A DNA stretch of 38,683 bases. It comes from a virus. This document shows positions 26,898-38,472 of this stretch, piece by piece. The DNA lies in the IMG/VR virus record IMGVR_UViG_3300020473_000005, positions 1 to 38,683 of that record; one strand, 5' to 3'. The notes beneath the pieces are model-generated. The model was not told where the DNA came from, did no database searches, and saw only the letters and a program-made list of their open reading frames with translations. Position 1 is the stretch's first letter. Each line of letters starts with the position of its first letter. The position numbers were made by a program, and so were the translations under genes.

Positions 26898-27194
26898 ATG
26901 GCGGTAAGGACTCACAAGTTTAGCACTGGCAAGTTCAAGATTATCTTTGAAGAGATTGACGGGCTGTGTTGTGACACTGACAACCCGCCAGAAGATGAGG
27001 AGAAGTCGATTAGCATCAACCCGCGCCTGAGCAAACGATATCGTTTGGAGGTGCTGATACACGAAATGCTTCACGCTGAGTATCCCAGTATAAAAGAAAG
27101 CAGCGAGGAGCAGTGGGTGGACGAAGCCGCCCGCAATATCTCCTCGCTGCTGTGGAGGTTGGGCTACAGGGAAACTAAAGACCCACGGAGCTAG
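26898..27194 (+). CDS. HExxH zinc metallopeptidase-like protein
   Basis: This is 98 residues from the ATG at 26898. A TTG at 26880 would add 6 residues and sits nearer a purine stretch, so the start is unsettled. The zincin signature HEMLH is at 55-59 within VLIHEMLHAEYP. An acidic D75/E76 in EQWVDEAARN is a possible third ligand, as in minimal metallopeptidases. Small proteins of this sort occur in phages as putative anti-repressor or virion-processing proteases, but no substrate is known. The gene carries a copy of the 16-bp palindrome (27032-27047) in its coding sequence. Its end overlaps the oppositely transcribed gene by 20 nt. Confidence 0.72.
   Translation: MAVRTHKFSTGKFKIIFEEIDGLCCDTDNPPEDEEKSISINPRLSKRYRLEVLIHEMLHAEYPSIKESSEEQWVDEAARNISSLLWRLGYRETKDPRS
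27032..27047. repeat. 16-bp palindrome, copy 1 (CAAACGATATCGTTTG)
   Basis: This is the only fully symmetric copy of the site. It lies in the metallopeptidase gene, where it is read as Lys-Arg-Tyr-Arg-Leu. The remaining copies are at 31360, 34206, 36199, 36490 and 37614. Confidence 0.9.
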
Positions 27195-27417
27195 TCGCTC
27201 TGCCGATCACTATACCTCGAAGCTTTGATCTAACCTTCTTGAGGTGAAAGTATTCCTGCTTTGATTCCTCACTATCCCAGCGGTACTCACCGCAGGCAAC
27301 CTCACCACGGTGGCGCAGAAGTTCTTTAATGCGCTCGTCAAGCATCTCAACGGATGTTTTGATCTCGTACATAGTAAGCTCTTTACGCACGGGAGCGGAG
27401 GCGGTAATGTCAACCAT
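27175..27417 (-). CDS. Hypothetical early protein, last gene of the leftward unit
   Basis: This 80-residue protein overlaps the end of the DnaA-like gene by 8 nt, with GAGG 6 nt upstream of its ATG. It is highly charged and probably helical (SVEMLDERIKELLRHRG; SKQEYFHLKKVRSKLRGIVIG). An internal Met before YEIKTSVEML is an alternative start. I do not recognise it. Its 3' end overlaps the convergent metallopeptidase gene by 20 nt, so the two transcripts collide here. Confidence 0.65.
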   Translation of the reverse strand: MVDITASAPVRKELTMYEIKTSVEMLDERIKELLRHRGEVACGEYRWDSEESKQEYFHLKKVRSKLRGIVIGRATSSVGL

Positions 27418-27823
27418 TGATAACCTCCTCGAACTTCTTCTTGAACTCCTCGTTGCGAGCGATGATATACTTCTTACGCATGTGGTTGAACAGTTCAGCC
27501 GCCTTAACTGACGGCTTGTAGAACTTGTTGTCCGGCTTGTCGCCTATCTCAAACACATCCTCCATCGCCCTACATCCGTGCAGGATTGTGCCGTGATCTT
27601 TAGCCTTCGGGAACAGGAACCCGATCTCAGTAAGGGACATGCTAGTGCCCTTACGCATGATCCAGTAGGTCATCTGCCTAGCTTTGGCGATTGCAACCTG
27701 CCTCCTGTGACGAACAACTATGTCCTCCTCTTCCACATTAAAGGCTTGAGCGGCGGCTATGGCTGCGATTCGGAACACTTCCTGATTAGCTTTATTATTA
27801 TTTGGTTTAACTTTCTTTCTCAT
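27410..27823 (-). CDS. DnaA domain IV-like DNA-binding protein
   Basis: This 137-residue protein lacks any AAA+ ATPase but matches the DNA-binding domain of DnaA. A helix (VAIAKARQMTYWIMRKGTSMSLTEIGFLF) leads into KAKDHGTILHGCRAM (74-88), which corresponds to the DnaA signature G-R-D-H-T-T-V-x-H that reads the DnaA box; the key D76, H77 and T79 are present. It may recruit or block host DnaA machinery at a phage origin, or act as a repressor. A stem-loop lies just upstream and holds its only good Shine-Dalgarno (GGGAGG) in the stem. It overlaps the next gene by 8 nt. Confidence 0.8.
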   Translation of the reverse strand: MRKKVKPNNNKANQEVFRIAAIAAAQAFNVEEEDIVVRHRRQVAIAKARQMTYWIMRKGTSMSLTEIGFLFPKAKDHGTILHGCRAMEDVFEIGDKPDNKFYKPSVKAAELFNHMRKKYIIARNEEFKKKFEEVING

Positions 27824-27832
27824 ATCGATAGT

Positions 27833-27876
27833 AAAACCCTCCCCAAATGAAACTGCAAAACATCGGGGAGGGTTTT
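27833..27876. terminator. Bidirectional hairpin upstream of the DnaA-like gene
   Basis: AAAACCCTCCCC (27833-27844) pairs perfectly with GGGGAGGGTTTT (27865-27876) around a 20-nt loop. Each strand ends in a short T run. On the leftward transcript it lies between the 95-aa gene and the DnaA-like gene, and its 3' arm contains the GGGGAGGG that could be the downstream ribosome site. It may both attenuate transcription and hide that site. Confidence 0.75.
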
Positions 27877-27886
27877 TAATTAAGGG

Positions 27887-28174
27887 TTAAGCTGCGAACG
27901 GATCGTTAGCAACTGCTGCTGCTGACTCTTTAGGCCGAGCGAGAGATGGCTTCATGCCTACTCGCGGGGCATCGTTCTTGTCCACCTCACTCCACCCAGA
28001 GAGCAGGATGTCTACGTTACCATCAGCATCTGCAAACTCTGCGAGCTTGTTGATGTTTATGCCAGCGAGCTTCCCTTTGAAATCGGGATGCGTCTCTGTG
28101 GTCTTGTTCTCGTTCTTGTACAGCCAGCCCTTACCTTCGAGCTTGGCGTACTCCATTTCTTGTTTTTCAGGCAT
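27887..28174 (-). CDS. Hypothetical early protein ending NDPFAA
   Basis: This 95-residue protein has AAAGGA about 9 nt before the ATG. The centre (HPDFKGKLAGININKLAEFADADGNVDILLSGWSEV) is predicted beta-rich, and the C-terminal 25 residues are flexible. A start with KLEGKGWLYKNENKTTETHPDFKG is familiar from phage genomes, often near recombination genes, but I know no function. Single-strand DNA binding is a possibility suggested only by position and size. It is followed by the bidirectional hairpin. Confidence 0.7.
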   Translation of the reverse strand: MPEKQEMEYAKLEGKGWLYKNENKTTETHPDFKGKLAGININKLAEFADADGNVDILLSGWSEVDKNDAPRVGMKPSLARPKESAAAVANDPFAA

Positions 28175-28176
28175 AC

Positions 28177-28770
28177 TTATTTATCCTTTACCTTTTCCTT
28201 AACAGCCACAGCCCATCTCTCCACCGTACCGACGATGGATAACAACCGTTGTTTAACGGCTGGGTCAAGTGGCCCGTCAAGATTCTGTTGCCACAGCAGG
28301 TCAATCTGACCTCCGATGCTGTAGCCAAAAGTCTTAATGGCGGTGCAGCTTTCCTCCCTGCTGCACCATCGGCAATAGTCGCACAACCACGGCGAGCGTG
28401 TGGGATCATTAACCGAATCGACGATAGAGTATACAGTATCCATCGCCTGCTCCAAGGAAATCTTTTCCACATGAGCCTCCCGATACTTCGAGTATACGAT
28501 GTGATATGTGACCTCCCTCAAATCATACCGCTGCATAATTCCGAGGGCGTAGGCGGCCATTTGAGGCCCGTAATCGCGTATCCTGCCAGTCTTTAGATCG
28601 AACAGTTCACCCTCACAGTAGGCATCCACACTTCCGAAGGTCACTTCCTCTCCATCTCGCATGATGCTGACCACCTGCTCGCTGTGAACCTCACGGCCTT
28701 TGGTCTTGTCGAGGATGTATCGTGCCGCCCACAGCACCTCCTTACTAAATGTTTTACCTTTCAGTTTCAT
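28177..28770 (-). CDS. RecB/Cas4-like (DUF2800-type) nuclease, C-terminal part
   Basis: This 197-residue protein has the catalytic half of a RecB-family PD-(D/E)XK exonuclease: D49 (in FGSVDAY), D58-L-K60 (in ELFDLKTG) and the QxxxY motif (Q70-M-A-A-Y74). Three-plus-one cysteines (C130, C133, C136, C142 in CDYCRWCSREESC) are suited to an iron-sulfur cluster. The normal N-terminal segment of such enzymes, with the first cluster Cys and the RG...H motif, is missing here but present in the separate gene at 29959-30183. It starts in an ATGA overlap with the 61-aa gene. It likely trims DNA ends for the ERF annealing protein. Confidence 0.75.
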   Translation of the reverse strand: MKLKGKTFSKEVLWAARYILDKTKGREVHSEQVVSIMRDGEEVTFGSVDAYCEGELFDLKTGRIRDYGPQMAAYALGIMQRYDLREVTYHIVYSKYREAHVEKISLEQAMDTVYSIVDSVNDPTRSPWLCDYCRWCSREESCTAIKTFGYSIGGQIDLLWQQNLDGPLDPAVKQRLLSIVGTVERWAVAVKEKVKDK

Positions 28771-28952
28771 TGTGATTTAGCTCTCCACGCTTTATCCCGC
28801 ATCTCAGTAATGATGTCTACGAGTTGTTGGTTTTTGGACTGCCGCAGGCCGATGTGGATTGCGTCCAGTTCGCTGCGGCTGAGTCCTTTAGTCCTGATTG
28901 CGTCCATAGCAATCTGCTCCCACTGCTCGATAAGCCCCCGTTGGTCATTCAT
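28767..28952 (-). CDS. Hypothetical 61-residue helical protein
   Basis: This small charged helical protein (IEQWEQIAMDAIRTKGLSRSELDAIHIGLRQSKN) is coupled by ATGA overlaps to the 28-residue membrane peptide upstream and to the nuclease gene downstream. I do not recognise it. The GLSRSELDAIHIGL stretch could be a helix-turn-helix-like motif but is too short to be sure. Confidence 0.65.
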   Translation of the reverse strand: MNDQRGLIEQWEQIAMDAIRTKGLSRSELDAIHIGLRQSKNQQLVDIITEMRDKAWRAKSQ

Positions 28953-29035
28953 AATGTTGCCATCTTCAACACCAGACCCAGCATAGCTAAGGCTATGATT
29001 ATGGTTGCAATAGTCTCAAGGTCTTTAAGTTTCAT
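28949..29035 (-). CDS. 28-residue single-pass membrane mini-protein
   Basis: The ORF begins MKLKDLETIATIIIALAM and continues LGLVLKMATL: a short charged start and one hydrophobic helix. It fills exactly the gap between two genes. Its ATG overlaps the upstream stop (ATGA) and its stop overlaps the next ATG (ATGA), so three genes are chained. That precise fit is the main evidence. The function is unknown; small phage membrane peptides often affect the host envelope or superinfection. Confidence 0.62.
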   Translation of the reverse strand: MKLKDLETIATIIIALAMLGLVLKMATL

Positions 29036-29223
29036 AGCTTGAGTATGGGGTCTTTAGGTTTCTTGTAGCCAGTCTTGGCGTGGAACTCGCAGTGCTCACA
29101 CAGCAGCATCTTGAGCCAGCTTTCTATATTAAGGCCGAAAGATCGTGATGCCTTCTCATCGGAGTCCTCGATGTAAACTGTCATTTTGTCTTTGCATTTT
29201 CTGCATCTGGTTTCGTGGTACAT
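29032..29223 (-). CDS. Zinc-ribbon-like protein (CRKC / CEHC)
   Basis: This 63-residue protein has an AAAGGAA ribosome site 4 nt upstream of the ATG, inside the end of the previous gene. CRKC (residues 7-10) and CEHC (residues 42-45) form the two knuckles of a probable zinc ribbon, and the C-terminus is basic (KTGYKKPKDPILKL). The fold suggests nucleic-acid or protein binding. It resembles HNH-associated or transcription-factor zinc ribbons but lacks the nuclease residues. It overlaps the 28-residue gene by ATGA. Confidence 0.7.
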   Translation of the reverse strand: MYHETRCRKCKDKMTVYIEDSDEKASRSFGLNIESWLKMLLCEHCEFHAKTGYKKPKDPILKL

Positions 29224-29705
29224 TTATGTTCCTTTGCTTTGTCCATTGGCAGGAAGGCGTTGGGCTGCTTGACCTTACCGCCGTTGATGGTTGCCTTTGT
29301 GGTTGTCTCCCTCACATCAAACTCAACTATATAGTTACCTTTCTTGTCTGTGATTGGTAGAGTGTAGATAGTTTTTTCCGGTATTAAGTACAGCATACCG
29401 ACGAAAGGTACGGACAGGAAGTAGCTGACGGATTGGCCCTTCTCTATCTTTGAGTTAGCCACCAGCCACTCACCTCCGTAGTCTCCGAACAGTTGTTCGT
29501 GCGTCATGTTGCGGCACTTGACCTCCACCGCTGCGGTCATGATGCCGTCTCGGTGCAGGTACATGATACCATCGATAGCCGCAGGCGAATGCTTGTCAGT
29601 CTCCAGAAACTTAAACTGTGGGTACAGGTTGCAAAACAGGCTGATGCATTCCCGCTCATACTCAAGAGACTTCTGCCCCCGTGGCGTCTCTATTGCTAGG
29701 CTCAT
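29181..29705 (-). CDS. PD-(D/E)XK nuclease-fold protein
   Basis: This 174-residue protein has a helical start (QKSLEYERECISLFCNLYP) followed by AAIDGIMYLHRDGIMTAAVEVKCRNMTHEQL. D45 and E61-V-K63 form a PD-(D/E)XK core, with E18 as a possible extra ligand. The C-terminal part after about 145 is basic and Lys-rich. Similar proteins in phages are of unknown substrate. It starts in an overlap with the 86-aa gene and carries a copy of the AACTATATAGTT palindrome (29325). It lies between the two parts of the split nuclease. Confidence 0.7.
   Translation of the reverse strand: MSLAIETPRGQKSLEYERECISLFCNLYPQFKFLETDKHSPAAIDGIMYLHRDGIMTAAVEVKCRNMTHEQLFGDYGGEWLVANSKIEKGQSVSYFLSVPFVGMLYLIPEKTIYTLPITDKKGNYIVEFDVRETTTKATINGGKVKQPNAFLPMDKAKEHKCTTKPDAENAKTK
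29325..29336. repeat. AACTATATAGTT palindrome, copy 2
   Basis: Perfect 12-bp palindrome inside the PD-(D/E)XK gene, where it is read as Asn-Tyr-Ile-Val. Confidence 0.8.
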
Positions 29706-29962
29706 CGCTTCACCATCTCTTCCAGAGCAGCGACCCGTCTGCGTAGTGTTTTGTTTTCCTCAATCAGGGGTTCGTACTTGTGCTTGAGGGATTGGATGTA
29801 GTGCCAGAAGTCTACGGCTTCGTACTCGATGTCCGTAAAGTTTACGTTCTCGTCGAGGTTACCGCCGTGCTCGTTCTGCCCTACGTCATACTTAACAGGC
29901 GCGACTTGATTAAATCGCGCCATCGACTCGTCTCTGATTTGGTCTGGGGTTCTAGTGCTCAT
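29702..29962 (-). CDS. Hypothetical coiled-coil protein
   Basis: At 86 residues, this has a start (TPDQIRDESMARFNQVAPVKYDVGQNEHGGNLDENV) that looks like a small globular segment. From about 50 the chain is a heptad-rich helix (FWHYIQSLKHKYEPLIEENKTLRRRVAALEEMVKR) that should form a coiled coil. The ATG overlaps the previous stop (ATGA). It is not recognised. It could be an adaptor for one of the flanking nucleases. Confidence 0.68.
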   Translation of the reverse strand: MSTRTPDQIRDESMARFNQVAPVKYDVGQNEHGGNLDENVNFTDIEYEAVDFWHYIQSLKHKYEPLIEENKTLRRRVAALEEMVKR

Positions 29963-30183
29963 CGCTTTTTGATCTCCAGTTCTTTGGGGTTCATCCGAAG
30001 TAACTCTTCGGTCAGTTCGTTGTTGGTCAGAATCTCCTCCAGCATCTCATGCAGTTTGGTTCCCCGCTCTGCCGCTGCACCTGCTGGCTTTGACTTGTAG
30101 CAGGGGCATTTGGACAGGGCGGGTAGACCAGACGGCGGAAAGTCTGGGTGATGATCTCTGGAACTATGGTTTATTTCAGTCAT
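29959..30183 (-). CDS. RecB/Cas4-like nuclease, N-terminal fragment
   Basis: This is 74 residues. SGLPALSKCPCYKSK (residues 18-32) and ERGTKLHEMLEEI (39-51) match the N-terminal signature of Cas4/AddB-like and DUF2800-type nucleases, which have a first cluster Cys followed by RG...H. The chain stops before the D..DLK core, which is instead found in the gene at 28177-28770, with five genes between. The ATG comes only 9 nt after a U-run of a structured RNA element, and no Shine-Dalgarno is visible, so translation initiation is unusual. It may pair with the downstream fragment, or it may be a relic. Confidence 0.65.
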   Translation of the reverse strand: MTEINHSSRDHHPDFPPSGLPALSKCPCYKSKPAGAAAERGTKLHEMLEEILTNNELTEELLRMNPKELEIKKR

Positions 30184-30186
30184 AAT

Positions 30187-30297
30187 AAAAAAGGCTGCTC
30201 ACGTTTGTTTCAAACAGGAACCCAGAAGGACAATAAAACAAAAACTTCTGAGTTCCACCGTTCACGGCTCTCCCGTGACACCATACCGTGAGCAGCC
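30187..30297 (-). ncRNA. Four-helix structured RNA element with terminal U-run
   Basis: Read leftward, an 11-bp outer stem closes a multi-branch loop: GGCTGCTCACG pairs with CGTGAGCAGCC (30287-30297 with 30193-30203). Inside are three hairpins: TCACGG/CCGTGA (30262-30278, loop of 5), a 12-bp arm at 30245-30256 with 30217-30228, and GTTTG/CAAAC (30203-30215, loop of 3; it shares one base with the outer stem). The 12-bp arm is fully paired, with a G-U wobble, only in leftward RNA; the other strand has an A-C mismatch. Six U follow. It sits 6 nt after the erf stop and directly before the next ATG. It could be a terminator-attenuator, a riboswitch-like element or a stable small RNA. Confidence 0.7.
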
Positions 30298-30303
30298 GTG
30301 AGC

Positions 30304-30825
30304 CTACTTGATAAACTCGCTGGCCTTAGCTGCCTCCTGTTTAGCTGCGCCATTGCCGCGCCTACTGGTCTTGGCCTGCATAGCGGTATCACCTACCGCA
30401 GCATTGCCGTCATCATCTGGCTCGTCCGTAGCTACGCATAGCAGGGACTGCAAGGTGTAACGTCTGGCATAGGTGATGGCACTACCGAGAGACTGCATGT
30501 CCTCCTTCGCTGAACGTAGGGGCATACTGGACTGCACTACCTGATCCCCAAACACCAGCTTAGTGGTGATGAAATCTTGTCGTGGGTAATGCACCTTATT
30601 CCCGTCACCATCATTAAGAATGGTGCGCTCTTGCGTGAAGTCGCATACCTGCAACACGGCGATGCCCTCTTTGTTGAGTGCGTCACGGGTTACGGCAATG
30701 ATCTCCTCCAGCCCTGCGTACTTACTCTTGAAGTACGGATTGTCGGAAGACTTCTCAGCCTTCTTGATGGTGAGTTGTGCGCGAGCGATAGCTGCGCCGA
30801 TGGTATCTACTTTTTTATCTGGCAT
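30304..30825 (-). CDS. erf: ERF-family single-strand annealing protein
   Basis: This 173-residue protein catalyses annealing of complementary single strands during phage recombination. Family motifs are clear: SDNPYFKSKYAGLEEIIAVTRDALNKEGIAVLQ (28-60) and LGSAITYARRYTLQSLLCVATDEPDDDGNAA (113-143). The C-terminal 30 residues are Ala/Lys-rich and flexible, usual for partner contact. The ATG lies inside the end of the resolvase gene (19-nt overlap) with no strong ribosome site, suggesting coupling. It works naturally with the neighbouring exonuclease-like and resolvase-like genes and may form concatemers for packaging. Confidence 0.9.
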   Translation of the reverse strand: MPDKKVDTIGAAIARAQLTIKKAEKSSDNPYFKSKYAGLEEIIAVTRDALNKEGIAVLQVCDFTQERTILNDGDGNKVHYPRQDFITTKLVFGDQVVQSSMPLRSAKEDMQSLGSAITYARRYTLQSLLCVATDEPDDDGNAAVGDTAMQAKTSRRGNGAAKQEAAKASEFIK

Positions 30826-31142
30826 TGTTTTACTAGGTTTAAGAACGCATCACCTGTCATTGAGACTACCCACTCTTTCAACTTGCCACCTGTCCGGTAG
30901 CTGGCAACCACTGGCGTCTTGTCGCCGCAGTCACCCTTCGCCTGAATGAGGGCCGCCTCTATGTTGGGGCGTTGCGTATATTTTACTTCAAAGTGGAGGT
31001 GGGGTAGATCGTCACAGATAACATCGGGGCTGTCCTCCGAGCCACTGAACTGCTGGCCTCGCCTAGAGTTTGTGAAGCCAGCAGCCTTTAGCTGGTCGCG
31101 CCACAACCTCTCACCTCTCTTTCCTTTTTCTCTGCTATTCAC
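30807..31142 (-). CDS. Holliday junction resolvase-like PD-(D/E)XK nuclease
   Basis: This is 111 residues with a GTG start overlapping the regulator stop and GGGGAG about 5 nt upstream. KGKRGERLWRDQLKAAGF (6-23), SEDSPDVICDDLPHLHFEVKYTQR (35-58) give the archaeal-Hjc-like core: E11, P39-D40 and E52-V-K54. The family cleaves branched DNA, fitting a role in resolving recombination intermediates made by the ERF protein next door. It is small for a resolvase but within the range of phage versions. Confidence 0.82.
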   Translation of the reverse strand: MNSREKGKRGERLWRDQLKAAGFTNSRRGQQFSGSEDSPDVICDDLPHLHFEVKYTQRPNIEAALIQAKGDCGDKTPVVASYRTGGKLKEWVVSMTGDAFLNLVKQCQIKK

Positions 31143-31302
31143 TGTACTCCCCGACTTTAGCTCCGTCGATGAGGATGCTGATGATGTCCGCGAACGAGCG
31201 TCCGGTTTCTTTCTTCAGCACCTTCAACTTCTCGCCCATATCAGCGGGTATGCGAATATGCAAATCGTATTGTTCTCTGTGTTTCTTAGGTATTTCACTC
31301 AT
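31135..31302 (-). CDS. Arc-like ribbon-helix-helix regulator
   Basis: This is 55 residues from the ATG at 31302. The strand YDLHIRIP (residues 11-18) and helices GEKLKVLKKETGRSFADIISILIDGAK are a standard Arc/MetJ-type ribbon-helix-helix DNA-binding dimer. A longer frame reaching 31380 would run through the promoter and is rejected. A near-consensus sigma-70 promoter ends only 10 nt before the ATG, leaving at most a few leader bases and no Shine-Dalgarno, so the message may be leaderless like lambda cI from PRM. ATRGTACCAT lies in the promoter spacer and the 16-bp palindrome upstream. It is a candidate regulator of either site. Confidence 0.82.
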   Translation of the reverse strand: MSEIPKKHREQYDLHIRIPADMGEKLKVLKKETGRSFADIISILIDGAKVGEYSE

Positions 31303-31312
31303 TGGGATATTT

Positions 31313-31340
31313 ATTATAACAGTTAATGGTACTATGTCAA
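31313..31340 (-). promoter_or_regulatory. Strong sigma-70 promoter for the recombination operon
   Basis: Leftward TTGACA (31340-31335), a 16-bp spacer and TATAAT (31318-31313) are both perfect hexamers. Transcription should begin near 31306. The spacer contains the motif ATAGTACCAT (31335-31326), whose first base is the last base of the -35 hexamer. This should drive the regulator, resolvase, erf and the following genes. Confidence 0.88.
31326..31335. promoter_or_regulatory. ATRGTACCAT motif, copy 1
   Basis: This near-palindrome, ATGGTACTAT on the plus strand, lies between the -35 and -10 of the regulator promoter. The same motif overlaps two further promoter candidates at 36550 and 38076. 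It is a likely operator, possibly for the ribbon-helix-helix protein. Confidence 0.55.
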
Positions 31341-31359
31341 GTACCCTCTGGTGGTAAGG

Positions 31360-31375
31360 CAAACGGTATCGTTTG
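31360..31375. repeat. 16-bp palindrome, copy 2 (CAAACGGTATCGTTTG)
   Basis: It lies 19 bp upstream of the -35 of the strong leftward promoter, a position suited to activation or looping, and downstream of the terminator of the preceding unit. Confidence 0.9.
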
Positions 31376-31382
31376 GGCAATG

Positions 31383-31424
31383 GAAAAGCGGGCCGAGGAA
31401 GAAAGGTAAAGACCCCGACCCGCT
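31383..31424 (-). terminator. Terminator of the first early unit
   Basis: In leftward RNA a 12-bp stem (31424-31413 with 31398-31387), including two G-U wobbles, is followed by UUUU. The same DNA read rightward has two mismatches and no T run, so the terminator is leftward. It separates the small early genes from the regulator promoter. Confidence 0.8.
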
Positions 31425-31443
31425 GGGAGGTGACCCCTAGAGG

Positions 31444-31671
31444 TCACTGATTCTTATTGAATTGAATCCAATCGTCAAGCAACTCCTTAGCAACAGCGGA
31501 TGCTTCGCGGTTGCTACCTTTCTCCGCATAGATTATTGCGAGGCCAACGGCGACTAGAGACTTACCGGACTCCAGCCTGTCGATGCCGCGCACTTCCTCT
31601 ATGTCTACGAGGTTGCCGACTTCTTCGCAGAACTCCTCATGCTGCTCCATTGTCTCTTTGTCTAGTTGCAT
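31444..31671 (-). CDS. Hypothetical acidic helical protein
   Basis: This is 75 residues from the ATG at 31671; a GTG two codons earlier is an alternative. The chain is acidic and helical (ETMEQHEEFCEEVGNLVDIEEVRGIDRLESGKSLVAVGLAIIYAEKGSNREASAVAKELLDDW). It overlaps the end of the upstream gene by 35 nt. It is the last gene before the unit terminator. I do not recognise it. Confidence 0.62.
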   Translation of the reverse strand: MQLDKETMEQHEEFCEEVGNLVDIEEVRGIDRLESGKSLVAVGLAIIYAEKGSNREASAVAKELLDDWIQFNKNQ

Positions 31672-31978
31672 AAGCACTAACCATAAGTGTTGCCTTTCCT
31701 CTCTTTGTTGTCACTACCTCGTTACCCTCATCATCTGTGGATATGATGCGGGTAGGTTTGCCTGCTCTACAACGTGCTCCGCAGGGGGTAACTTCCTCAA
31801 CTATATAGTTGCACTCGTCTACCTCCACCTCGTCGCCCACCTTGAGCAGCCTGCCGAAGCTGGTGCGATGAGGCATAGTCTCCCATACCTCCATCGCACC
31901 GTGCTCCGTGATTACTTTGTCCACTAGCTGCTGGACTCCCCAGCGGCTGTCGCGGAATGGTTTAGTTTTTGACTCCAT
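31637..31978 (-). CDS. Hypothetical early protein with small beta domain
   Basis: This 113-residue protein has a helical N-terminus (WGVQQLVDKVITEHGAMEVWETMP) and then a strand-rich segment (GRLLKVGDEVEVDECNYIVEEVTPCGARCRAG) reminiscent of a small barrel. It overlaps the previous gene by 17 nt and the next by 35 nt. It contains an AACTATATAGTT copy, read as Asn-Tyr-Ile-Val. No family is recognised. Confidence 0.65.
   Translation of the reverse strand: MESKTKPFRDSRWGVQQLVDKVITEHGAMEVWETMPHRTSFGRLLKVGDEVEVDECNYIVEEVTPCGARCRAGKPTRIISTDDEGNEVVTTKRGKATLMVSAYATRQRDNGAA
31799..31810. repeat. AACTATATAGTT palindrome, copy 3
   Basis: Perfect 12-bp palindrome inside the 113-aa gene, in the same reading frame (Asn-Tyr-Ile-Val) as copy 2 although the surrounding proteins are unrelated. 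Confidence 0.8.
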
Positions 31979-32264
31979 ATTTCTTGCGTATGGACAGGGT
32001 CAGCACCCTGCCGTCTGTGTCTGTGCGGGTCTTGAAGTTAGCCTTCAAGTCCTGCTTGTATTTAGATAGTGCATTACGCACGGCCTGCACTGATGTCTCA
32101 GCCTCTTGGCCGTCAGTCATTTCGACCTGCACGGTTTGCCCAGCCGCCATCTTCTTTAGCTCCCCGTACAAACTAGGGAAGCGGGGGATACGCTGGCGTG
32201 TGTGTTGCGCGTTTCGCCGCTTAGTCTTCGGCCACTCGGCATTGGTTACAATGTTGTGTAACAT
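31962..32264 (-). CDS. Hypothetical basic early protein
   Basis: This 100-residue, lysine- and arginine-rich protein (WPKTKRRNAQHTRQRIPRFPSLYGELKKM; VRNALSKYKQDLKANFKTRTDTDGRVLTLSIRKK) has an AAAGAAAGATAAAG purine stretch before the ATG. Its composition suggests nucleic-acid binding. It lies 22 nt downstream of the DUF932-like gene. The family is not recognised. Confidence 0.68.
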   Translation of the reverse strand: MLHNIVTNAEWPKTKRRNAQHTRQRIPRFPSLYGELKKMAAGQTVQVEMTDGQEAETSVQAVRNALSKYKQDLKANFKTRTDTDGRVLTLSIRKKYGVKN

Positions 32265-32286
32265 TACTTTATCTTTCTTTTATAGG

Positions 32287-33138
32287 TTAGCCTGCAATCT
32301 GACCCTGCAGGAGTAGGTCATCCATCGATGTGGAAATCATTTTGGTTAGGTCGCTGATCACATTGGTAGTGTGACGGCGGCTGATTACTACCTCACCACT
32401 GAAGCACAGGTTGTCGCACACAAACGGTGCTACACCCAGAGCCAGCCCAGCAGGGAAGCGCATGTTGTTACTGTTACGGATGCCCAGCACATAGCGGTAG
32501 GACTGAGCCATAGTATCTTGCTGCGGGAACAGAGACTCCTGCTCCACTAGGCTGCGGACACGGTTGCCGTCTGGATCGCAATACTTCTCCAGCAGTTTGA
32601 CAGTCTGCTGGGTACGGGTATTGATGGACTCCAGTCTGGCATTCTCAGACTTGAACCTGCCGCCCCGTTGCAGGACGTGGGTGTACGCTTGCAGGTAACG
32701 CCACACGTTGTGGCCGTAGCTCTGCTCATCTCGCAGCAGGGGGTTACCCTCGGCGTCTGCACCTTCCCGTTCGTACTCCTTCTCCACCGCCAGCATCTGG
32801 GTGACTGGCATGTTCCCGTGCTGGGACATGCGAACGTGCAGGTGGTGACGGTCTTTGACTGACAGTGGGGTGTCGCGGAATATCCGGTTACGCGCATCGA
32901 TAGAGGGGACAGTAAACTCCTCCAACTCTACCAGTCCGAACATGCACTCGCCGTCTTTGGTGACGCCGAACTGCCCGTCCTTACGCTTGATATTCCGACG
33001 ATCCATATCATCGAATACAATGTCCAGTAACTCCCCGTGATCTACGGGGCGGTGAGTGTCCGACTTAGCAGTCGCTTTGATTTGGCGCACCTGATCTTCG
33101 CTTGTCAGGGTCGCTCCGCAATGTAGCATTAGGCTCAT
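32287..33138 (-). CDS. DUF932-like protein
   Basis: This is 283 residues, the largest protein of the early block. A C-terminal segment, SYRYVLGIRNSNNMRFPAGLALGVAPFVCDNLCFSGEVVISRRHTTN (residues about 216-262), resembles the DUF932 family of phage and plasmid proteins (typical pattern: S-x-D-x-S, x-GL, VC-x-N). The N-terminal half is charged. DUF932 proteins are common in phage early regions and have no established role. A good ribosome site (AAAGAAAGGAA) precedes the ATG, which lies within the 69-aa gene upstream. Confidence 0.65.
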   Translation of the reverse strand: MSLMLHCGATLTSEDQVRQIKATAKSDTHRPVDHGELLDIVFDDMDRRNIKRKDGQFGVTKDGECMFGLVELEEFTVPSIDARNRIFRDTPLSVKDRHHLHVRMSQHGNMPVTQMLAVEKEYEREGADAEGNPLLRDEQSYGHNVWRYLQAYTHVLQRGGRFKSENARLESINTRTQQTVKLLEKYCDPDGNRVRSLVEQESLFPQQDTMAQSYRYVLGIRNSNNMRFPAGLALGVAPFVCDNLCFSGEVVISRRHTTNVISDLTKMISTSMDDLLLQGQIAG

Positions 33139-33274
33139 TGTTATTCCTTTCTTTTTGTTTAGGGTTATGCCCGTGTTTACGGGCGTATCTTACGAACTCC
33201 CACGACTCGCGTGAGATTTCCTCAACTGGCAGCCGACAGGGTTGCCAGTCAAAATTGTAATCTTCAGCACTCAT
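33065..33274 (-). CDS. Hypothetical 69-residue early protein
   Basis: The N-terminal half (SAEDYNFDWQPCRLPVEEISRESWEFVRYARKHGH) looks like a folded helical segment. The C-terminal half is basic and Asn/Arg-rich and overlaps the DUF932-like gene by 74 nt in another frame. It has no strong ribosome site and no recognised family. The long overlap lowers confidence, but leaving it out would give an untypical gap in a dense operon. Confidence 0.5.
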   Translation of the reverse strand: MSAEDYNFDWQPCRLPVEEISRESWEFVRYARKHGHNPKQKERNNNEPNATLRSDPDKRRSGAPNQSDC

Positions 33275-33276
33275 AG

Positions 33277-33648
33277 CTAGTTTTTTGAGGGATCACTTTC
33301 GAGAAAGTCGTTGATCAGATTCTCGTAATCATCCTTCCATATACAGTTGATGAGGTTTCCAACGAACCTGCATTCGTAATCCGCATCGACTCTATACATT
33401 CCTCTATTGGGGCTGTTGCCGTCTACTGCAACTGTGACCTCTTCGGGGCCGAACATAATCGTTATGTATCCATAAGAATCCTGAAGCTGGATAGCAATGA
33501 AATCATCGCCACTTTTTTTATTCCTGAGACCTCCTAAGTTTGGCAGGGGGTCGCACCCATCGCATGCTTCTATGATCAGCCCGATTTGATTCAGTTGTCG
33601 TTCGTTTAATTCTGGGTCTTTAGTTTTCTTTAGGTTTCTTCGTTTCAT
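33277..33648 (-). CDS. Hypothetical early protein (123 residues)
   Basis: AAAGG is 7 nt before the ATG. A basic N-terminus (MKRRNLKKTKDPELNERQLNQIG) leads into a mixed alpha/beta chain with YGYITIMFGPEEVTVAVDG and VDADYECRFVGNLINCIWKDDYENLIND. The AACTATATAGTT palindrome lies directly upstream of its ribosome site (33663-33674). It is not recognised. Confidence 0.68.
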   Translation of the reverse strand: MKRRNLKKTKDPELNERQLNQIGLIIEACDGCDPLPNLGGLRNKKSGDDFIAIQLQDSYGYITIMFGPEEVTVAVDGNSPNRGMYRVDADYECRFVGNLINCIWKDDYENLINDFLESDPSKN

Positions 33649-33662
33649 TTGTTTACCTTTCT

Positions 33663-33674
33663 AACTATATAGTT
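33663..33674. repeat. AACTATATAGTT palindrome, copy 4
   Basis: Perfect 12-bp palindrome that includes the stop codon of the 237-aa gene and lies just before the ribosome site of the 123-aa gene, so a protein bound here could affect expression of the latter. Confidence 0.8.
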
Positions 33675-34378
33675 GTGTTCAGTTTCTTTTTGCCTACGCC
33701 GTGAGCGGCGATGGTGATGTTGCGTGTGGATTTACTGGCACTCCCGTTGCACAGTAGGCATTGATCGCAAGTGGTCTTGCGTCCAGCCTCCTCACTGGAT
33801 GGGCATACTATCTCATCCTTAAACTTCTGGGGGAGCTTTGAGGTAGACCGACTCCAGATCGGGGTCGGAGTTATTCTGAAGGTACGCCAGCCGTCTGCCT
33901 GTGCCTCGCGTGCCTCCGCCTCACTGTCTACGCTTGCCATTAGCCATTGCTTGTATGCCGTATGCTTGCGCCACTGGTGGGTGTACCCAGTCCAGCCGCT
34001 AGATGCATTGGCAATCTCTTCAATCATATCTGTGGATAGTATTACCGGATCGCCGTAGGCTCCGAACCTGACCTTACGCCCCTCGAATATGGAGGTGTCG
34101 CCAGCCCAGTGCTTGTATCCTCCCCTATCCCAACACTTCCAGATAGCCAGCGGAGCCTGCCCCAGATTGACGTAGCATGTGCCGTTTCTGTGTGGGCAGT
34201 CGAAGCAAACGGTATCGTCTGCCCCTACCTTACGCGCTGCCACTGGGTTCATGTGCCTGTTGAGCAGCCATATCTGTATCATGTCTGCGGTCTTGCTGTT
34301 GGCACTGCCGCTGGCAAAGCCAGTCGCGATGACCACAACATCCGGTGTCTGAAATAACACTAGTCCATTCTTACTCAT
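33665..34378 (-). CDS. Conserved phage protein with two Cys clusters
   Basis: This 237-residue protein has GGAAAGG 6 nt before the ATG. An N-terminal cluster (CFDCPHRNGTCYVNLGQAPLAIWKCWDRGGY, from about residue 58) and a C-terminal one (CPSSEEAGRKTTCDQCLLCNG, from about 192) could bind zinc or an iron-sulfur cluster. The central RFGAYGDPVILS and WTGYTHQW motifs are familiar from phage proteins related to the gp88/DUF7227 type, whose activity is unknown. I am confident of its being conserved but not of the family name. One copy of the 16-bp palindrome lies in its coding sequence (34206). Confidence 0.7.
   Translation of the reverse strand: MSKNGLVLFQTPDVVVIATGFASGSANSKTADMIQIWLLNRHMNPVAARKVGADDTVCFDCPHRNGTCYVNLGQAPLAIWKCWDRGGYKHWAGDTSIFEGRKVRFGAYGDPVILSTDMIEEIANASSGWTGYTHQWRKHTAYKQWLMASVDSEAEAREAQADGWRTFRITPTPIWSRSTSKLPQKFKDEIVCPSSEEAGRKTTCDQCLLCNGSASKSTRNITIAAHGVGKKKLNTTI
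34206..34221. repeat. 16-bp palindrome, copy 3 (one mismatch, CAAACGGTATCGTCTG)
   Basis: This variant differs from the common form at one base of the right arm. It lies within the 237-aa gene. Confidence 0.75.
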
Positions 34379-34659
34379 TGTTTACCTTTCCGTTTTGTCT
34401 CCCTTATGAATTGCATCTCCCGATTGCCTAAGACGTAACAAGTGTTCACGCAGTTGGTGGTTACCATCCGGCAAATCTCAACAAAGTAAATTGCATTATC
34501 CACAATTACCTCTATTCTCTCTATGGTTGGCTGACCGTACTTGAAGTTACTAACGTTTTGACGGTACTCAATCTCACCGAGCCTGACTTTGCGCCAAATC
34601 CTGCACCTTATAGATGGTGGTATTTCTCCCCACCACCTGTTATTGGGGATAAGTTTCAT
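34375..34659 (-). CDS. Hypothetical basic early protein (94 residues)
   Basis: GGAGG lies 6 nt before the ATG, one of the best ribosome sites in the block. The chain is basic with Trp-Trp near the start (MKLIPNNRWWGEIPPSIRCRIWRKVRLGEIEYRQ) and a strand-rich second half (IERIEVIVDNAIYFVEICRMV). It overlaps the next gene by 4 nt (ATGA). A perfect DnaA-box consensus (TTATCCACA, 34496-34504) lies in its coding sequence. It is not recognised. Confidence 0.68.
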   Translation of the reverse strand: MKLIPNNRWWGEIPPSIRCRIWRKVRLGEIEYRQNVSNFKYGQPTIERIEVIVDNAIYFVEICRMVTTNCVNTCYVLGNREMQFIRETKRKGKQ

Positions 34660-34934
34660 TGATTACCTCCATTCACAGTGATACGGGAAGCGTTCCCTGA
34701 ACGCATCGACGCAGGCATCAGCCGCCTGCTTATTTTCTTCTGGGTCTATCTCATCCCAGTTACACGGTGGCCTGTCTATCCACAGGTGAAGAACCTCAAA
34801 CGAGGGTTCCCTTTCATCCGCTGCCCCGTCTGGGTTAGCGGGTCTCATCTGGACGAGAGCGCAATAGGCTCTGCCTCCAAACTCTACATCATCTACATCT
34901 AGTATCATTCTGTTGTCCTTTCTGTTGTGAATAA
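34496..34934. promoter_or_regulatory. Scattered DnaA-box-like sites (possible origin)
   Basis: TTATCCACA at 34496-34504 is a perfect DnaA box. TGTGAATAA at 34926-34934 is the reverse complement of TTATTCACA, also within the consensus. Two one-mismatch versions lie between, at 34644-34652 (reverse) and 34776-34784. AT-rich DNA follows at 34930-34970. Two exact hits in 440 bp can arise by chance, so this is a weak origin candidate, strengthened only by the phage's own DnaA-domain-like protein. Confidence 0.3.
34663..34908 (-). CDS. Hypothetical acidic early protein (81 residues)
   Basis: AAAGGA lies 8 nt before the ATG. The start MILDVDDVEFGGRAYCALVQMRP is strand-rich, and FEVLHLWIDRPPCNWDEIDPEENKQAADACVDAFRERFPYHCEWR follows after a short Asp/Glu-rich loop. 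It is not recognised. It is the first gene after the 178-nt gap at 34909-35086. Confidence 0.68.
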   Translation of the reverse strand: MILDVDDVEFGGRAYCALVQMRPANPDGAADEREPSFEVLHLWIDRPPCNWDEIDPEENKQAADACVDAFRERFPYHCEWR

Positions 34935-35086
34935 TTTCTACTTGTTGCTTACGGTATAGCTATATATACTAGCTCGCATGAGCTTTTCCGGTTCGCATAG
35001 AGCAAGCGTTACCTAGTCAAACTCAATTACTGATTACCCTCCCCTGAGCCAGCTATTCTAGGCTAGTGTAGCTATCCTGAAGGGGG
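34909..35086. other. 178-nt intergenic gap in the early block
   Basis: No ORF is supported here. A TTGACT with a poor -10 (TATGCG, 15-bp spacer) near 35000-35020 is a weak leftward promoter candidate. Inverted arms AGCTA/TAGCT flank TATATAC at 34958-34974. The AGCTATYCT motif is repeated at about 35051 and 35070, near complementary CCCCT/AGGGG-type ends, which suggests further RNA structure after the transglycosylase gene. Confidence 0.45.
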
Positions 35087-35455
35087 TTATTTGTTTAGGT
35101 TTCTCCATACTTTCTGCCAATATACTTCTGTTGCTTGTTTCTTGTAGCCGTTCGGCCCGCCATTCCAGATGCGGGCATAGTCTTCTATGGTTGGCCGTCT
35201 GCCTAACCTGTTCTCCGTTGCGTATCTGTGCAGGTACGATAGCATAATCTGCTCTGCTTTCTGCCTATCGTAGCAGTCCTTCGGGAACCTAAACTGACTC
35301 AATCCCCTAGCTTTCCGCCACTCATTGGCATCAATCACACATGCTTCCTGTATCTGCAACGGGCCGTGGCTTGCGCCATTGTCACCCACTGCCCTGTCAT
35401 TCCCGCTAGATTCTACCATCATCACGGCCATCACGAATGCTTGCCACGTTATCAT
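35087..35455 (-). CDS. Lytic transglycosylase (SLT-like) / endolysin candidate
   Basis: This 122-residue protein would cleave the glycan strands of peptidoglycan. Catalytic Glu15 lies in VESSGND, followed by SHGPLQIQEACVIDANEW and then IEDYARIWNGGPNGYKKQATEVYWQKV, the expected SLT-fold order. There is no signal peptide, although the first 15 residues are rather hydrophobic. It is encoded on the opposite strand from the holin and spanin-like genes and in the early block, which is unusual for an endolysin. It may instead have a virion or early role. GAAAGGAAAG precedes the ATG. Confidence 0.8.
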   Translation of the reverse strand: MITWQAFVMAVMMVESSGNDRAVGDNGASHGPLQIQEACVIDANEWRKARGLSQFRFPKDCYDRQKAEQIMLSYLHRYATENRLGRRPTIEDYARIWNGGPNGYKKQATEVYWQKVWRNLNK

Positions 35456-35469
35456 TGCTTTCCTTTCTG

Positions 35470-35688
35470 TTAATCCCAGTCAAGTCCTCCGCCCCACACG
35501 AAGCCCGTCATAAAATCGCGCTCACCTCGTGATACATCTCCGCCGCGAGAAACCGTGATGAGTAGCGAGATGAACTTATCAATTTCAGGCTTGGTTTTCT
35601 CTGGATGTTTCTTTTGTTGGCGTCTGATGTACGCCAGCATTGCAGGGCCGAAGAGACTAGGCATCTTGAATCGTTTTCCATCTATCAT
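35470..35688 (-). CDS. Hypothetical basic early protein (72 residues)
   Basis: It begins MIDGKRFKMPSLFGPAMLAYIRRQQKKHPEKTKPEIDKFISLLITVSRGGD. The aromatic end (FMTGFVWGGGLDWD) is unlike the basic start. GAAAGG lies close to the ATG, inside the end of the upstream gene region. It is not recognised. It sits 14 nt upstream of the transglycosylase gene and is presumably co-translated with it. Confidence 0.65.
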   Translation of the reverse strand: MIDGKRFKMPSLFGPAMLAYIRRQQKKHPEKTKPEIDKFISLLITVSRGGDVSRGERDFMTGFVWGGGLDWD

Positions 35689-35691
35689 TGC

Positions 35692-36054
35692 TTAACCTTT
35701 CTCCATATCCGATTGCATTTTCTTAGTCTCCGCTGCGTAAACCCACAGTGGCCCGACATAATCGACGCAATACGGGTCATCGTAATCCTCCTGCGTCATG
35801 TACCCGTCCGGCGTACGGTACTTATCAACCTCAGAAATTGATAGCTCCGTGATCTCAATCGGGAACTCTCTGCAAATCGCCCCGTCTCCCCACCTATCTA
35901 GGATAGCGGCTGACGCATTGTGTATGCGTGGGCCGGTGTCGATAAACACATAGGTTTCGCCGCCTTTGGACTTCCACAGTGGCTCCTCCTCACTGCCGTA
36001 CTGCTCAAGTATCTGAGTAGTAACTTTCGCACATAGTATTCCATCTCCGTGCAT
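35692..36054 (-). CDS. Hypothetical early protein (120 residues)
   Basis: The ATG at 36054 is chosen because AAAGAAAGG lies about 6 nt upstream. The frame is open to 36144, but that extension lacks a ribosome site. The chain is mixed alpha/beta and acidic (GDGILCAKVTTQILEQYGSEEEPLWKSKGGETYVFIDTGPRIHNASAAILDRWGDGAICREFP). It is the first supported gene downstream of the leftward promoter candidate at 36550-36579. It is not recognised. Confidence 0.68.
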   Translation of the reverse strand: MHGDGILCAKVTTQILEQYGSEEEPLWKSKGGETYVFIDTGPRIHNASAAILDRWGDGAICREFPIEITELSISEVDKYRTPDGYMTQEDYDDPYCVDYVGPLWVYAAETKKMQSDMEKG

Positions 36055-36198
36055 ATCTAACCTTTCTTTTGTTAGTGGCTTAATTGCCACACGCCAGAAC
36101 ACGCATCGCATGTGCTGGAGTGTGGCCCCTAACAGGTTGGACAAATTGCTTTGCTCGTTTCCTAACTGCTAGGCTTCACACTTTAGATTGTAAGGTAT

Positions 36199-36214
36199 CA
36201 AACGGTATCGTTTG
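36199..36214. repeat. 16-bp palindrome, copy 4 (CAAACGGTATCGTTTG)
   Basis: An exact copy in the control region, flanked by GGTAT on the left and GGTAT on the right, so the outer bases also repeat. Confidence 0.9.
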
Positions 36215-36489
36215 GTATTGTCAGCAGTCGCTACCTGCTTGTGCATCACTGGCATTGTAGCCCTATGTGGGTGTGATGCGGGAGGCTCCACAAATTCGCT
36301 CCCTACGTCCCTCGCATTGGAACGCCCGCCATCCATACTTTTATCGCGGGTTGGCATTGGAAGGCATGAGCATTGGGTTATGAATCCATTGCCTGCTTTG
36401 TATTGAATGCGAAAGTGCGGGCTACCGTCTCGTGCTTTCGCACGGTTAACCGTCTCCCCTCCGCAGGTTATCTCTCCTTCCCTCAGTGG

Positions 36490-36505
36490 CAAACGGTATC
36501 GTTTG
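36490..36505. repeat. 16-bp palindrome, copy 5 (CAAACGGTATCGTTTG)
   Basis: An exact copy, about 36-50 bp downstream of the expected start of the leftward promoter candidate. A bound protein could act as a roadblock here. Confidence 0.9.
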
Positions 36506-36549
36506 CCGATGTAAAAGACCGTGTTGGCATACCTACCAACAACGCAGCT

Positions 36550-36579
36550 ATAGTACCATTGAATATCCCTTTTTGTCAA
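36550..36579 (-). promoter_or_regulatory. Leftward early promoter candidate with ATRGTACCAT motif
   Basis: TTGACA (36579-36574), an 18-bp spacer and TACTAT (36555-36550). The -35 is perfect and the -10 matches at four of six bases. ATAGTACCAT (36550-36559) overlaps the -10, so a protein recognising it would compete with polymerase. It should drive the genes from 36054 leftward. Confidence 0.6.
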
Positions 36580-36628
36580 CCATAAAGAATCCCGCCATAT
36601 TGGCAAGGGGCGGCCAGTGTGTAGGCAC

Positions 36629-36656
36629 AAAAAAAGCCCCCCGATATCGGGGGGCT
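36629..36656 (-). terminator. Strong terminator after the 249-aa gene
   Basis: A perfect 22-bp inverted repeat (36635-36656) with six G-C pairs in a row in each arm is followed leftward by a run of seven T. There is no T run on the other strand, so it terminates leftward transcription and isolates the 249-aa gene from the early block. Confidence 0.92.
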
Positions 36657-36668
36657 GTGTTGCTAGGT

Positions 36669-37418
36669 TTATGCCTTCGCGGTGGCTTTTTTGCCGCCTG
36701 CGCGTGTACGCTTGCCGCCTTTGGTGGCCGTCTTTTTTGCAATATCTTGCAACTTTTTGCCATTTTCTTTTATGGCATTTTCGACGGTTGCTTCAGCATT
36801 GGCTTGCGCGTTACTGCTCTCTTGAGCCGCATCAGGTGCTTGCGCTTTGTATTCGGCGACAATCTTTTTGGCTTGCGCCCATACGATATCGTGAACAAAG
36901 CAGATGCGCTGCTCATTGTTCATCTTACGCACTACGCTTACGCTTTTCTTTTCGACCGTTTCGCGGTCTTTGGTAGCGTTTGCCCCTTCAATCGCAAATG
37001 CGATCCCCGCCTGAATTCCGGCCCCAGTTAAGCGGGGAAGGATATCGCGCAGGTTGTCAGTGGGTTCGATAGAATCCGCCTCATTTGCAACCGCTTTGGT
37101 GATGGCATCTGCAAGTTTTTTCAAATCATTGCCAGTGCCGCGAGTATTGGCCGTTTTCTTGGGCCATTCTTTTTCACTGATAATGCGGTTACAGATGTCA
37201 TTTATGGTGCGGTAGGTTGGGTGTTCTTTTGGCTTTTTGTTCTCCTTATCTGCATCGCATATTACGGAGATTGTTGCCTCGAGTATTTTCACCAGCAATT
37301 CCGGCCCCTTTTTGGTGGCCGATTTTGGGAAAACGTCCGCTTCTTTTCGGATTGAATCCTCAATTGAAACGCTCCCGTTGTGGAATTGCACCAATTCTTC
37401 ACGCAATGAATCTTTCAT
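36669..37418 (-). CDS. Hypothetical protein with histone-like Lys/Ala tail
   Basis: This 249-residue protein has GAAAGG 6 nt before the ATG. The N-terminal 190 residues are mixed helical with no recognised motif (KGPELLVKILEATISVICDADKENKK; TYRTINDICNRIISEKEWPKKTANTRGTG). The C-terminal 30 residues (KKLQDIAKKTATKGGKRTRAGGKKATAKA) resemble the basic tails of histone H1-like and HU-fusion proteins, suggesting DNA binding. It forms its own transcription unit with a dedicated strong terminator and stands apart from the early block. It could be a moron, a nucleoid-binding protein or a regulator of the 16-bp sites. Confidence 0.75.
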   Translation of the reverse strand: MKDSLREELVQFHNGSVSIEDSIRKEADVFPKSATKKGPELLVKILEATISVICDADKENKKPKEHPTYRTINDICNRIISEKEWPKKTANTRGTGNDLKKLADAITKAVANEADSIEPTDNLRDILPRLTGAGIQAGIAFAIEGANATKDRETVEKKSVSVVRKMNNEQRICFVHDIVWAQAKKIVAEYKAQAPDAAQESSNAQANAEATVENAIKENGKKLQDIAKKTATKGGKRTRAGGKKATAKA

Positions 37419-37613
37419 TTTTTACCTTTCGTTTCCCTGTAGCCTGCAGGGTTATGTCAATCGCGAGTGGCTAATTCTCGCGAGTGCCGCACATGCGCGT
37501 GCACAGTTCTTTTCTACCAAAGGCGGTACCAATGCGCAAGAGAAACTTTGTATTAATCGCAAGTTTTATCCGGTGGCCGTTGGCGTTGGCCGTTGGGGTT
37601 GGCGATTGGTGGG

Positions 37614-37629
37614 CAAACGGTATCGTTTG
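37614..37629. repeat. 16-bp palindrome, copy 6 (CAAACGGTATCGTTTG)
   Basis: An exact copy in the divergent region, at the edge of the GTTGGC-rich run and about 195 bp upstream of the 249-aa gene. Confidence 0.9.
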
Positions 37630-37891: not shown

Positions 37892-38057
37892 GTTTTTCTG
37901 ATGGAGGGAATAAGGGAAGCTTATGCGGGCGGGCGGTAAGCTTGCCTTATGGCTGGCATTAGGTTGGCTAATGGTGGCAGGCGCGGGCGGCGGAAGACGA
38001 CGGGTGGGGTGACCACCCCATCGGCGGCCCTCATAGTAAGTACCCCCCAAAAAGAAC

Positions 38058-38085
38058 TGGACACGTTTTAACTTGATGGTACCAT
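38058..38085 (+). promoter_or_regulatory. Late promoter candidate for terS with ATRGTACCAT motif
   Basis: TGGACA (38058-38063), a 16-bp spacer and TACCAT (38080-38085). The palindrome ATGGTACCAT (38076-38085) overlaps the -10. Initiation would fall at about the terS ATG, so the message would be leaderless. Both hexamers are weak, as expected if an activator is needed. Confidence 0.4.
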
Positions 38086-38091
38086 TTTCAT

Positions 38092-38472
38092 ATGTCCGAG
38101 ATATCGGTGAAGAAGAACCTAACGGGCGAGACGCTCGATCTGTTTCTTGAAAAGCTTTCTAAGGGAGTCAGCCTGACTGGAGCCTGTGCCGCCTGCGGCA
38201 TCAGTGCGAAGCGGGTTGACCAGCTTCGTAAGGAGAAGCCTAAGTTCAATGCGCAAGTGCTGGCGGCTCAAGCTCGTGCCGAGGAGGCGTTCATCGACAA
38301 GATTCTAGAGAGCCGTGACGGGAAGCTGGCATTGTCTTTCCTGCAATCGCGGTTCCCGCACTGGAGTCCGAAGACGGCTGGAAGCGACAATTCGTCCGCG
38401 AAGAGCAGTATCTCGCCTGAGCTTCTCTCGCAGTTGTCTTCGATTCCAGAGCGGATTAAGACTCGCAACTAA
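38092..38472 (+). CDS. terS: Terminase small subunit
   Basis: This 126-residue protein precedes terL with a one-base overlap (TAATG). The segment LTGACAACGISAKRVDQLRKEKPKF (residues about 28-52) is a helix-turn-helix typical of small terminase subunits, which recognise the packaging site and load the motor. A helical oligomerisation segment follows (NAQVLAAQARAEEAFIDKIL), and the C-terminal 35 residues are Ser-rich. There is no Shine-Dalgarno upstream, consistent with a leaderless message or distant control. The gene-poor region immediately before it probably contains the pac or cos site. Confidence 0.88.
   Translation: MSEISVKKNLTGETLDLFLEKLSKGVSLTGACAACGISAKRVDQLRKEKPKFNAQVLAAQARAEEAFIDKILESRDGKLALSFLQSRFPHWSPKTAGSDNSSAKSSISPELLSQLSSIPERIKTRN

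Follow-up and report, generated by a model that had tools for sequence, protein, structure and literature searches.

What reads the six copies of a 16-bp near-palindrome that are scattered through the early region of a marine phage genome, and what are they for? The genome is IMG/VR record IMGVR_UViG_3300020473_000005 (38,683 nt; "the window" hereafter means this whole stretch), a complete circular phage genome, its circularity being deduced from the 77-bp direct terminal repeat by which its ends overlap (window 1-77 and 38607-38683); the TerL gene spans the ends of the record. Structural genes read rightward over 1-27 kb, and a leftward early operon extends from 37.4 to 27 kb with ERF, RusA-like, exonuclease, DnaA C-terminal-domain and ribbon-helix-helix (RHH) genes. 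Our answer, to which we give a probability of about 0.6, is that the palindromes are operators of a dimeric, sequence-specific binding protein of the phage's own, most likely the product of a 249-aa gene lying between two of the sites.

A first inspection of the letters without database searches (the sequence-only reading) had reported six copies in the window, and all of them were confirmed: CAAACGRTAYCGTTTG occurs five times, and once more with one mismatch.

27032 to 27047: site 1, CAAACGATATCGTTTG, fully symmetric with a GATATC centre, inside the gene of a 104-aa metalloprotease-like protein; kept in relatives L239 and L222.
31360 to 31375: site 2, CAAACGGTATCGTTTG, its centre at about -61.5 of the RHH gene promoter.
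34206 to 34221: site 3, CAAACGGTATCGTCTG, with one arm mismatch (CGTCTG), inside the phrog_2554 gene.
36199 to 36214: site 4, CAAACGGTATCGTTTG, intergenic; conserved in L092 and L006.
36490 to 36505: site 5, CAAACGGTATCGTTTG, its centre at about +45.5, downstream of the promoter at 36579-36550.
37614 to 37629: site 6, CAAACGGTATCGTTTG, 195 bp upstream of the 249-aa gene.

Their number is beyond chance, as had been claimed: at up to three mismatches, 13 strand-matches to the site pattern were counted, against 0.21 expected from dinucleotide shuffles. When repeated palindromes were sought de novo, CAAACG-N4-CGTTTG came out as the top family of the window, and 30 shuffled genomes yielded no palindrome family with three or more members of 14 bp or longer. 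Five of the six sites are preceded by G (the exception, at 36199, has T). The site set is real, and it is very probably functional.

The sequence-only reading had named a lack of the sites in close relatives of the same gene order as a ground for rejection, and the sites passed this check: in L006 and L087-L093 (relatives are given by our handles) they are retained at aligned positions, site 3 in L006 even with the identical mismatch. When the intergenic sequences around 37614 are aligned, the 12 outer arm bases of site 6 show 98.8% identity, compared to 72.6% for the region, and among 611 such windows they rank first in conservation. At this aligned locus, which reads GGTATC, GATACC or GATATC in relatives, the asymmetric bases of the centre, two in number, vary freely; the common orientation of the centres noted earlier therefore carries no signal. 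The supposed absence of sites from the structural region holds for the window but not for L239, L194 and L202, where sites lie among the tail genes.

A second dispersed perfect palindrome of the window, AACTATATAGTT, was missed by the sequence-only reading. Its four copies (12 bp each; 26886, 29325, 31799 and 33663) span a stop codon (26886, 33663) or lie in coding sequence (29325, 31799), and it is retained in L006, L222 and L239. These copies may be operators left over from a former specificity, or a second regulator may bind them.

Relatives of the window phage are encoded on hundreds of IMG/VR contigs. The window motif was not matched within two mismatches in 31 more distant records; many distant relatives carry a dispersed palindrome of their own (12-22 bp), and at least 12 different ones were found.

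AGTACTG..CAGTACT: G001, G002 and L095-L107.
TTTACTG..CAGTAAA: G006 and L128.
TAAGTACTGCGCAGTACTTA: G005.
AAGTTACCGCGGTAACTT: L139.
TAAGTGTTCGCGAACACTTA: L290.
TAAGTGTTAGCYAACACTTA: L361.
TAAGTTGTAGCTACAACTTA: L123.
AAGGTTGACNNNGTCAACCTT: L111.
AAGGTTGATGCRTCAACCTT: G003.
TTCACAAATTTGTGAA: L136.
ATTGTGTWACACAAT: L141, L142 and L146.
AGTTATACGTWACGTATAACT: L144.
CTTCACATGATCATGTGAAG: G007.
ACTCTCGCGAGAGT: L145.

Copy numbers reach 11 for GTACTG..CAGTAC in G001, 7 for TTTACTG..CAGTAAA in G006 and 6 for CTCTCGCGAGAG in L145. In the G004 lineage a palindrome family is missing, and so is a recognisable regulator; no dispersed family was found in the Akkermansia phages, the nearest isolates (one local triplet occurs in DTMo-2021a).

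One spot, the terS-terL junction, can be compared across lineages at the 3' end of the following gene.

38092 to 38472, plus strand: small terminase subunit gene (terS), its 3' end carrying a lineage-specific palindrome in several relatives and none in the window.

Between the terS stop and the terL start L290 reads TAAGTGTTCGCGAACACTTATG, L361 TAAGTGTTAGCCAACACTTATG and L103-L105 TAAGTACTGCACAGTACT, other phages having nothing there; the respective palindromes are GTTCGCGAAC, GTTAGCCAAC and, in the third group, GTACTG..CAGTAC, and each variant agrees with the remaining sites of its own genome. Whole palindromes are cleanly present or absent in near-identical flanks (L290 compared to L120, L116 and L111), as might be expected of REP-like small mobile palindromes that spread by themselves and have no regulatory role. 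Such an origin is very improbable, because the conservation of the arms exceeds the background, the placement at the control locus is consistent, the palindromes correlate with one gene, and orthologous sites show co-ordinated base changes. At the other end of terS, the block CCCCCCAAAAAGAACTGGACACGTTTTAACTTGATGGTACCATTTTC (38041-38085, ahead of the gene) is strongly conserved in aligned close relatives and is accompanied by a promoter-like TGGACA-16-TACCAT.

The gene with which the palindromes correlate is the one between sites 5 and 6.

36669 to 37418, minus strand: gene of a 249-aa Lys/Ala-rich protein, the proposed cognate regulator.

In most lineages a single leftward gene, situated ahead of the divergent terminase genes, has palindrome copies on either side. 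Its counterpart products are 200-365 aa long, Lys- and Ala-rich and hypervariable; for the 249-aa protein, Pfam and PHROG gave nothing at E<0.03 and PDB sequences no relative, and the regulator proteins across lineages gave no convincing match to Pfam, PHROG or PDB sequences. Regulator identity is correlated with half-site identity (r=0.42 in 20 genomes, a value reached in none of 5000 permutations), and within the main clade the Mantel correlation is 0.53 (again reached in 0 of 5000 permutations). With terS taken into account, the partial r is 0.49. Two pairs, L139/L105 and L290/L111, have unrelated regulators and unrelated palindromes despite terS genes that are 96-98% identical. Of the proteins that the sequence-only reading put forward for binding tests, the 249-aa protein is the best candidate. 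From the sites, their conservation, their placement and their co-variation with this gene, all of them computed, we infer binding, repression and immunity by its product.

The same correlation bears on the second candidate binder.

31135 to 31302, minus strand: gene of a 55-aa RHH protein (weak match to phrog_7146), alternative binder, disfavoured.

RHH repressors frequently regulate themselves, and in most lineages a site lies just upstream of the promoter of this conserved gene (in the window, G001, G002, G005, L111 and L290 its start is preceded by a site at some 38-60 bp), so that all sites could be operators of the RHH protein. We consider this unlikely and rejected the protein, likewise a proposal of the sequence-only reading, as the binder: its identity does not track the half-site (r=-0.02), while the regulator on the same 8 genomes does (0.52, p=0.02); the RHH proteins of L111 and L290 are identical and the palindromes around their control regions different; the LHVR strand of the G003 protein is that of the TACTG group, yet the palindrome differs; and G004 has the RHH gene and lacks the palindrome family.

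The pair L111/L290 also speaks to the proposal that the sites belong to a host DNA-binding protein exploited by the phage and differ with the hosts. The host of the window phage is likely a member of the Verrucomicrobiota, because its terminase has Akkermansia phages as nearest isolates (37%) and, of five distant matches in bacterial genomes, three fall in Verrucomicrobiota; the hosts of the lineages may differ. L111 and L290, which share long blocks of about 98% identity and have unrelated regulators, differ in their control-region palindromes, and site changes accompany one phage gene, which makes a host factor improbable, slightly more so than the RHH protein. In these two phages the three centre bases of an AAGGTTGAC palindrome are reversed (ATC at L111 2173, GAT at L290 2584 in reverse complement) within nearly identical flanks, as if the centre had been inverted.

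The placement of the sites indicates how a protein bound there might act. At or between gene ends lie 51 of 89 sites, against 14.3 expected, and around the two candidate genes of the window the following signals were found.

36635 to 36656, minus strand: intrinsic terminator of the regulator gene (9 pairs, T tail), followed by a GTGCC block common to most lineages.
36550 to 36579, minus strand: P_left, promoter-like TTGACA-18-TACTAT of the leftward operon, a consensus match.
31313 to 31340, minus strand: promoter-like TTGACA-16-TATAAT of the RHH gene with TG, a 12/12 consensus match.

The order regulator, terminator, palindrome is conserved across lineages. In the window, L111, L136 and the TAAGT group a strong promoter stands between terminator and palindrome; in other lineages the terminator is followed at once by the palindrome. 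Relative to the promoter behind the regulator, the centre of the site is at +45.5 (window), +43 (L111) and +42.5 (L136), with unrelated palindromes, and in the TAAGT group the site is roughly 90-120 bp downstream of this promoter (read from the sequences). At the RHH promoter the site is upstream, at -61.5 in the window, -52.5 in L111, -55.5 in G002 and -50.5 in G005; site 2 is indeed the copy 19 bp upstream of the strongest promoter (minus strand, 31340-31313), as the sequence-only reading had it.

Two further elements were seen at this locus. The terminator tail TTTTTTTGTGCC (window 36624-36635) is conserved in L139, L141, L142, L144 and L145, though the regulators are unrelated. In TAAGT-type phages iterated TATGGGYGG boxes (3-6 copies; absent from the window locus) surround the promoter behind the regulator.

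1301 to 1450 of L139: TATGGGYGG boxes.
2117 to 2266 of L290: TATGGGYGG boxes.
2351 to 2500 of L361: TATGGGYGG boxes.
934 to 1037 of L123: TATGGGYGG boxes.
5030 to 5124 of L347: TATGGGYGG boxes.

We suggest that a phage-encoded dimeric protein would bind the 16-bp palindromes as operators. The 249-aa regulator would control its own gene, autoregulation being probable because this gene sits between two sites. Bound at +45 of P_left and at gene borders, the protein would block or arrest RNA polymerase in the manner of a stoperator; such a roadblock fits better than promoter occlusion, because +45 lies downstream of the start of RNA polymerase. At the RHH promoter (-61) it could insulate from transcription or modulate it, and a second role is possible for the sites at about -50 to -61. 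The specificity of regulator and sites would shift jointly, a behaviour also seen in immunity repressors and their operators.

The dispersal of the sites, the basic Lys/Ala-rich tails of several regulators and the DnaA C-terminal-domain protein encoded by the window genome might suggest instead centromere, replication or nucleoid-organising sites, where a protein bridges phage DNA, condenses it or partitions a plasmid-like prophage and any effect on transcription is secondary. ParB/parS and the N15 SopB centromeres are of this kind, with dispersed palindromic sites for one protein. Unlike these systems, 12 related records gave no match to the AAA_31 ParA ATPase (PF13614), and the sites are single, favour gene borders and keep a fixed distance to promoters in three lineages; nor do they resemble DnaA boxes. 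We regard such a function as improbable, to the same degree as a host factor, and the iteron or centromere roles and host-factor sites raised by the sequence-only reading found no favour in these comparisons. DnaA boxes and iterons were rejected as such, since the site is unlike TTATCCACA and words resembling a DnaA box lie at positions unconnected with it.

Several points weigh against the 249-aa protein as a regulator acting through these sites. Two of the window sites fall within coding sequence, and the promoters are known as consensus matches only. No DNA-binding domain was identified in the 249-aa protein, the AlphaFold model of which (4 sequences) has a pLDDT of 44 and was not used further; the G002-type counterpart gave a better model, entirely helical and with a pLDDT of 66, for which no matching fold was found (the best Foldseek E-values were 1.1 in PDB and 0.36 among viral models; VIA-align Z did not exceed 6.7, the hits being mostly designed or unrelated helical proteins and within expected noise). 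Profile comparison among the regulator classes detects no homology, and for this reason "the same gene" across classes rests on position and composition. The window and L092 have their palindrome in common with a regulator identity of only 28%, mostly in the C-terminal half. L111 and L290 carry two palindrome families each (mainly their own plus one or two sites of the other's), a pattern that exchange of a regulator cassette with persistence of former sites would produce. Finally, in the 12 records neither a tyrosine-type Phage_integrase (PF00589; serine integrases were not specifically searched) nor an HTH_3 repressor (PF01381, E<=0.001) was found, nor AAA_31 ParA, so that a lysogenic state of these phages is conjectural; the network may serve either a non-integrating carrier state or the timing of the lytic cycle.

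Known phage systems offer parallels. Megablast of window 27-38.7 kb found no match among known phages, and no known RNA family was found in the window. As a positive control, the same palindrome script recovered CTACTCACGTGAGTAG 15 times in phiC31 and 16 times in phiBT1, which we take to be the conserved inverted repeats (CIRs), operators of the c repressor. These CIRs are alike in having a 16-bp core palindrome with about 15 genome-wide copies, and in phiC31 one copy precedes the repressor gene by 73 bp; in the phages studied here, too, a single palindrome recurs in short intergenic gaps (the 51 of 89 sites above) and stands beside the regulator's own gene, in most lineages on both sides. In contrast to these phages, phiC31 and phiBT1 have an integrase in their annotation, their repressor gene measures about 1.7-2.1 kb, and they have one palindrome in common, whereas the window phage group has at least 12. 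The C1 operators of phage P1, which need not integrate, are likewise many and dispersed singly, an analogy by description; unlike the present sites, they are asymmetric 17-mers. The HTH_3 repressor of a lambda-type CI/Cro (XRE) system was not found in the 12 records.

The stoperators of the Cluster A phages (L5) are dispersed repressor sites, the motif of which diverges between phages together with the repressor; they are asymmetric 13-bp sequences, predominantly in one orientation relative to transcription, with up to about 30 per genome; binding is proposed to stop elongation and the site upstream of the repressor to be autoregulatory (PMC6550527, PMC9283540). The divergence of the motif with the regulator is paralleled here by the main-clade Mantel correlation. 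Unlike the stoperators, our sites are palindromic, number 6-12 per genome and would belong to a protein without detectable relatives, and their centre is free, flipping between relatives; as to elongation arrest, the likeness is one of geometry only (+42.5 to +45.5 downstream of promoters). The best reading is that the network resembles the phiC31 CIRs and L5 stoperators and would be new in its palindromic, fast-rewritten sites and in a regulator family without known relatives. Operators plus stoperators of a phage repressor, among the roles listed by the sequence-only reading, is the one favoured by the comparative data. The joint change of regulator and sites suggests superinfection immunity or a carrier state as the likeliest selective force, and because the diversification of operators among near-identical phages resembles descriptions of Cluster A immunity (PMC6550527), we favour an immunity-like role with moderate confidence. 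In some relatives ArdC-like antirestriction genes adjoin the regulator locus (L333 9062-10069, in G002; G004 24968-25972; L117 400-1455).

Tentatively, and at somewhat less than even odds, a genome-wide operator network may be at work in a large phage group in which no lysogeny genes are detected, the regulator of which would be a new hypervariable class of DNA-binding protein swapped at one locus, with the operators rewritten in step; this would have led to many private regulatory "languages" in phages that are nearly identical otherwise, including relic sites of earlier ones (the TAAGTG sites in L111, and perhaps AACTATATAGTT in the window). A likely role is assigned to an unannotated, fast-evolving phage gene beyond the reach of homology search, and a lineage-specific repeated palindrome flanking a gene provides a simple search for such systems. 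The group offers at least 12 natural protein-operator specificities on a common genome backbone, with orthologous sites in different states, and such phages make it directly testable how a dispersed operator set can change its specificity while the phage stays functional, a question that bears on immunity of the stoperator and CIR type.

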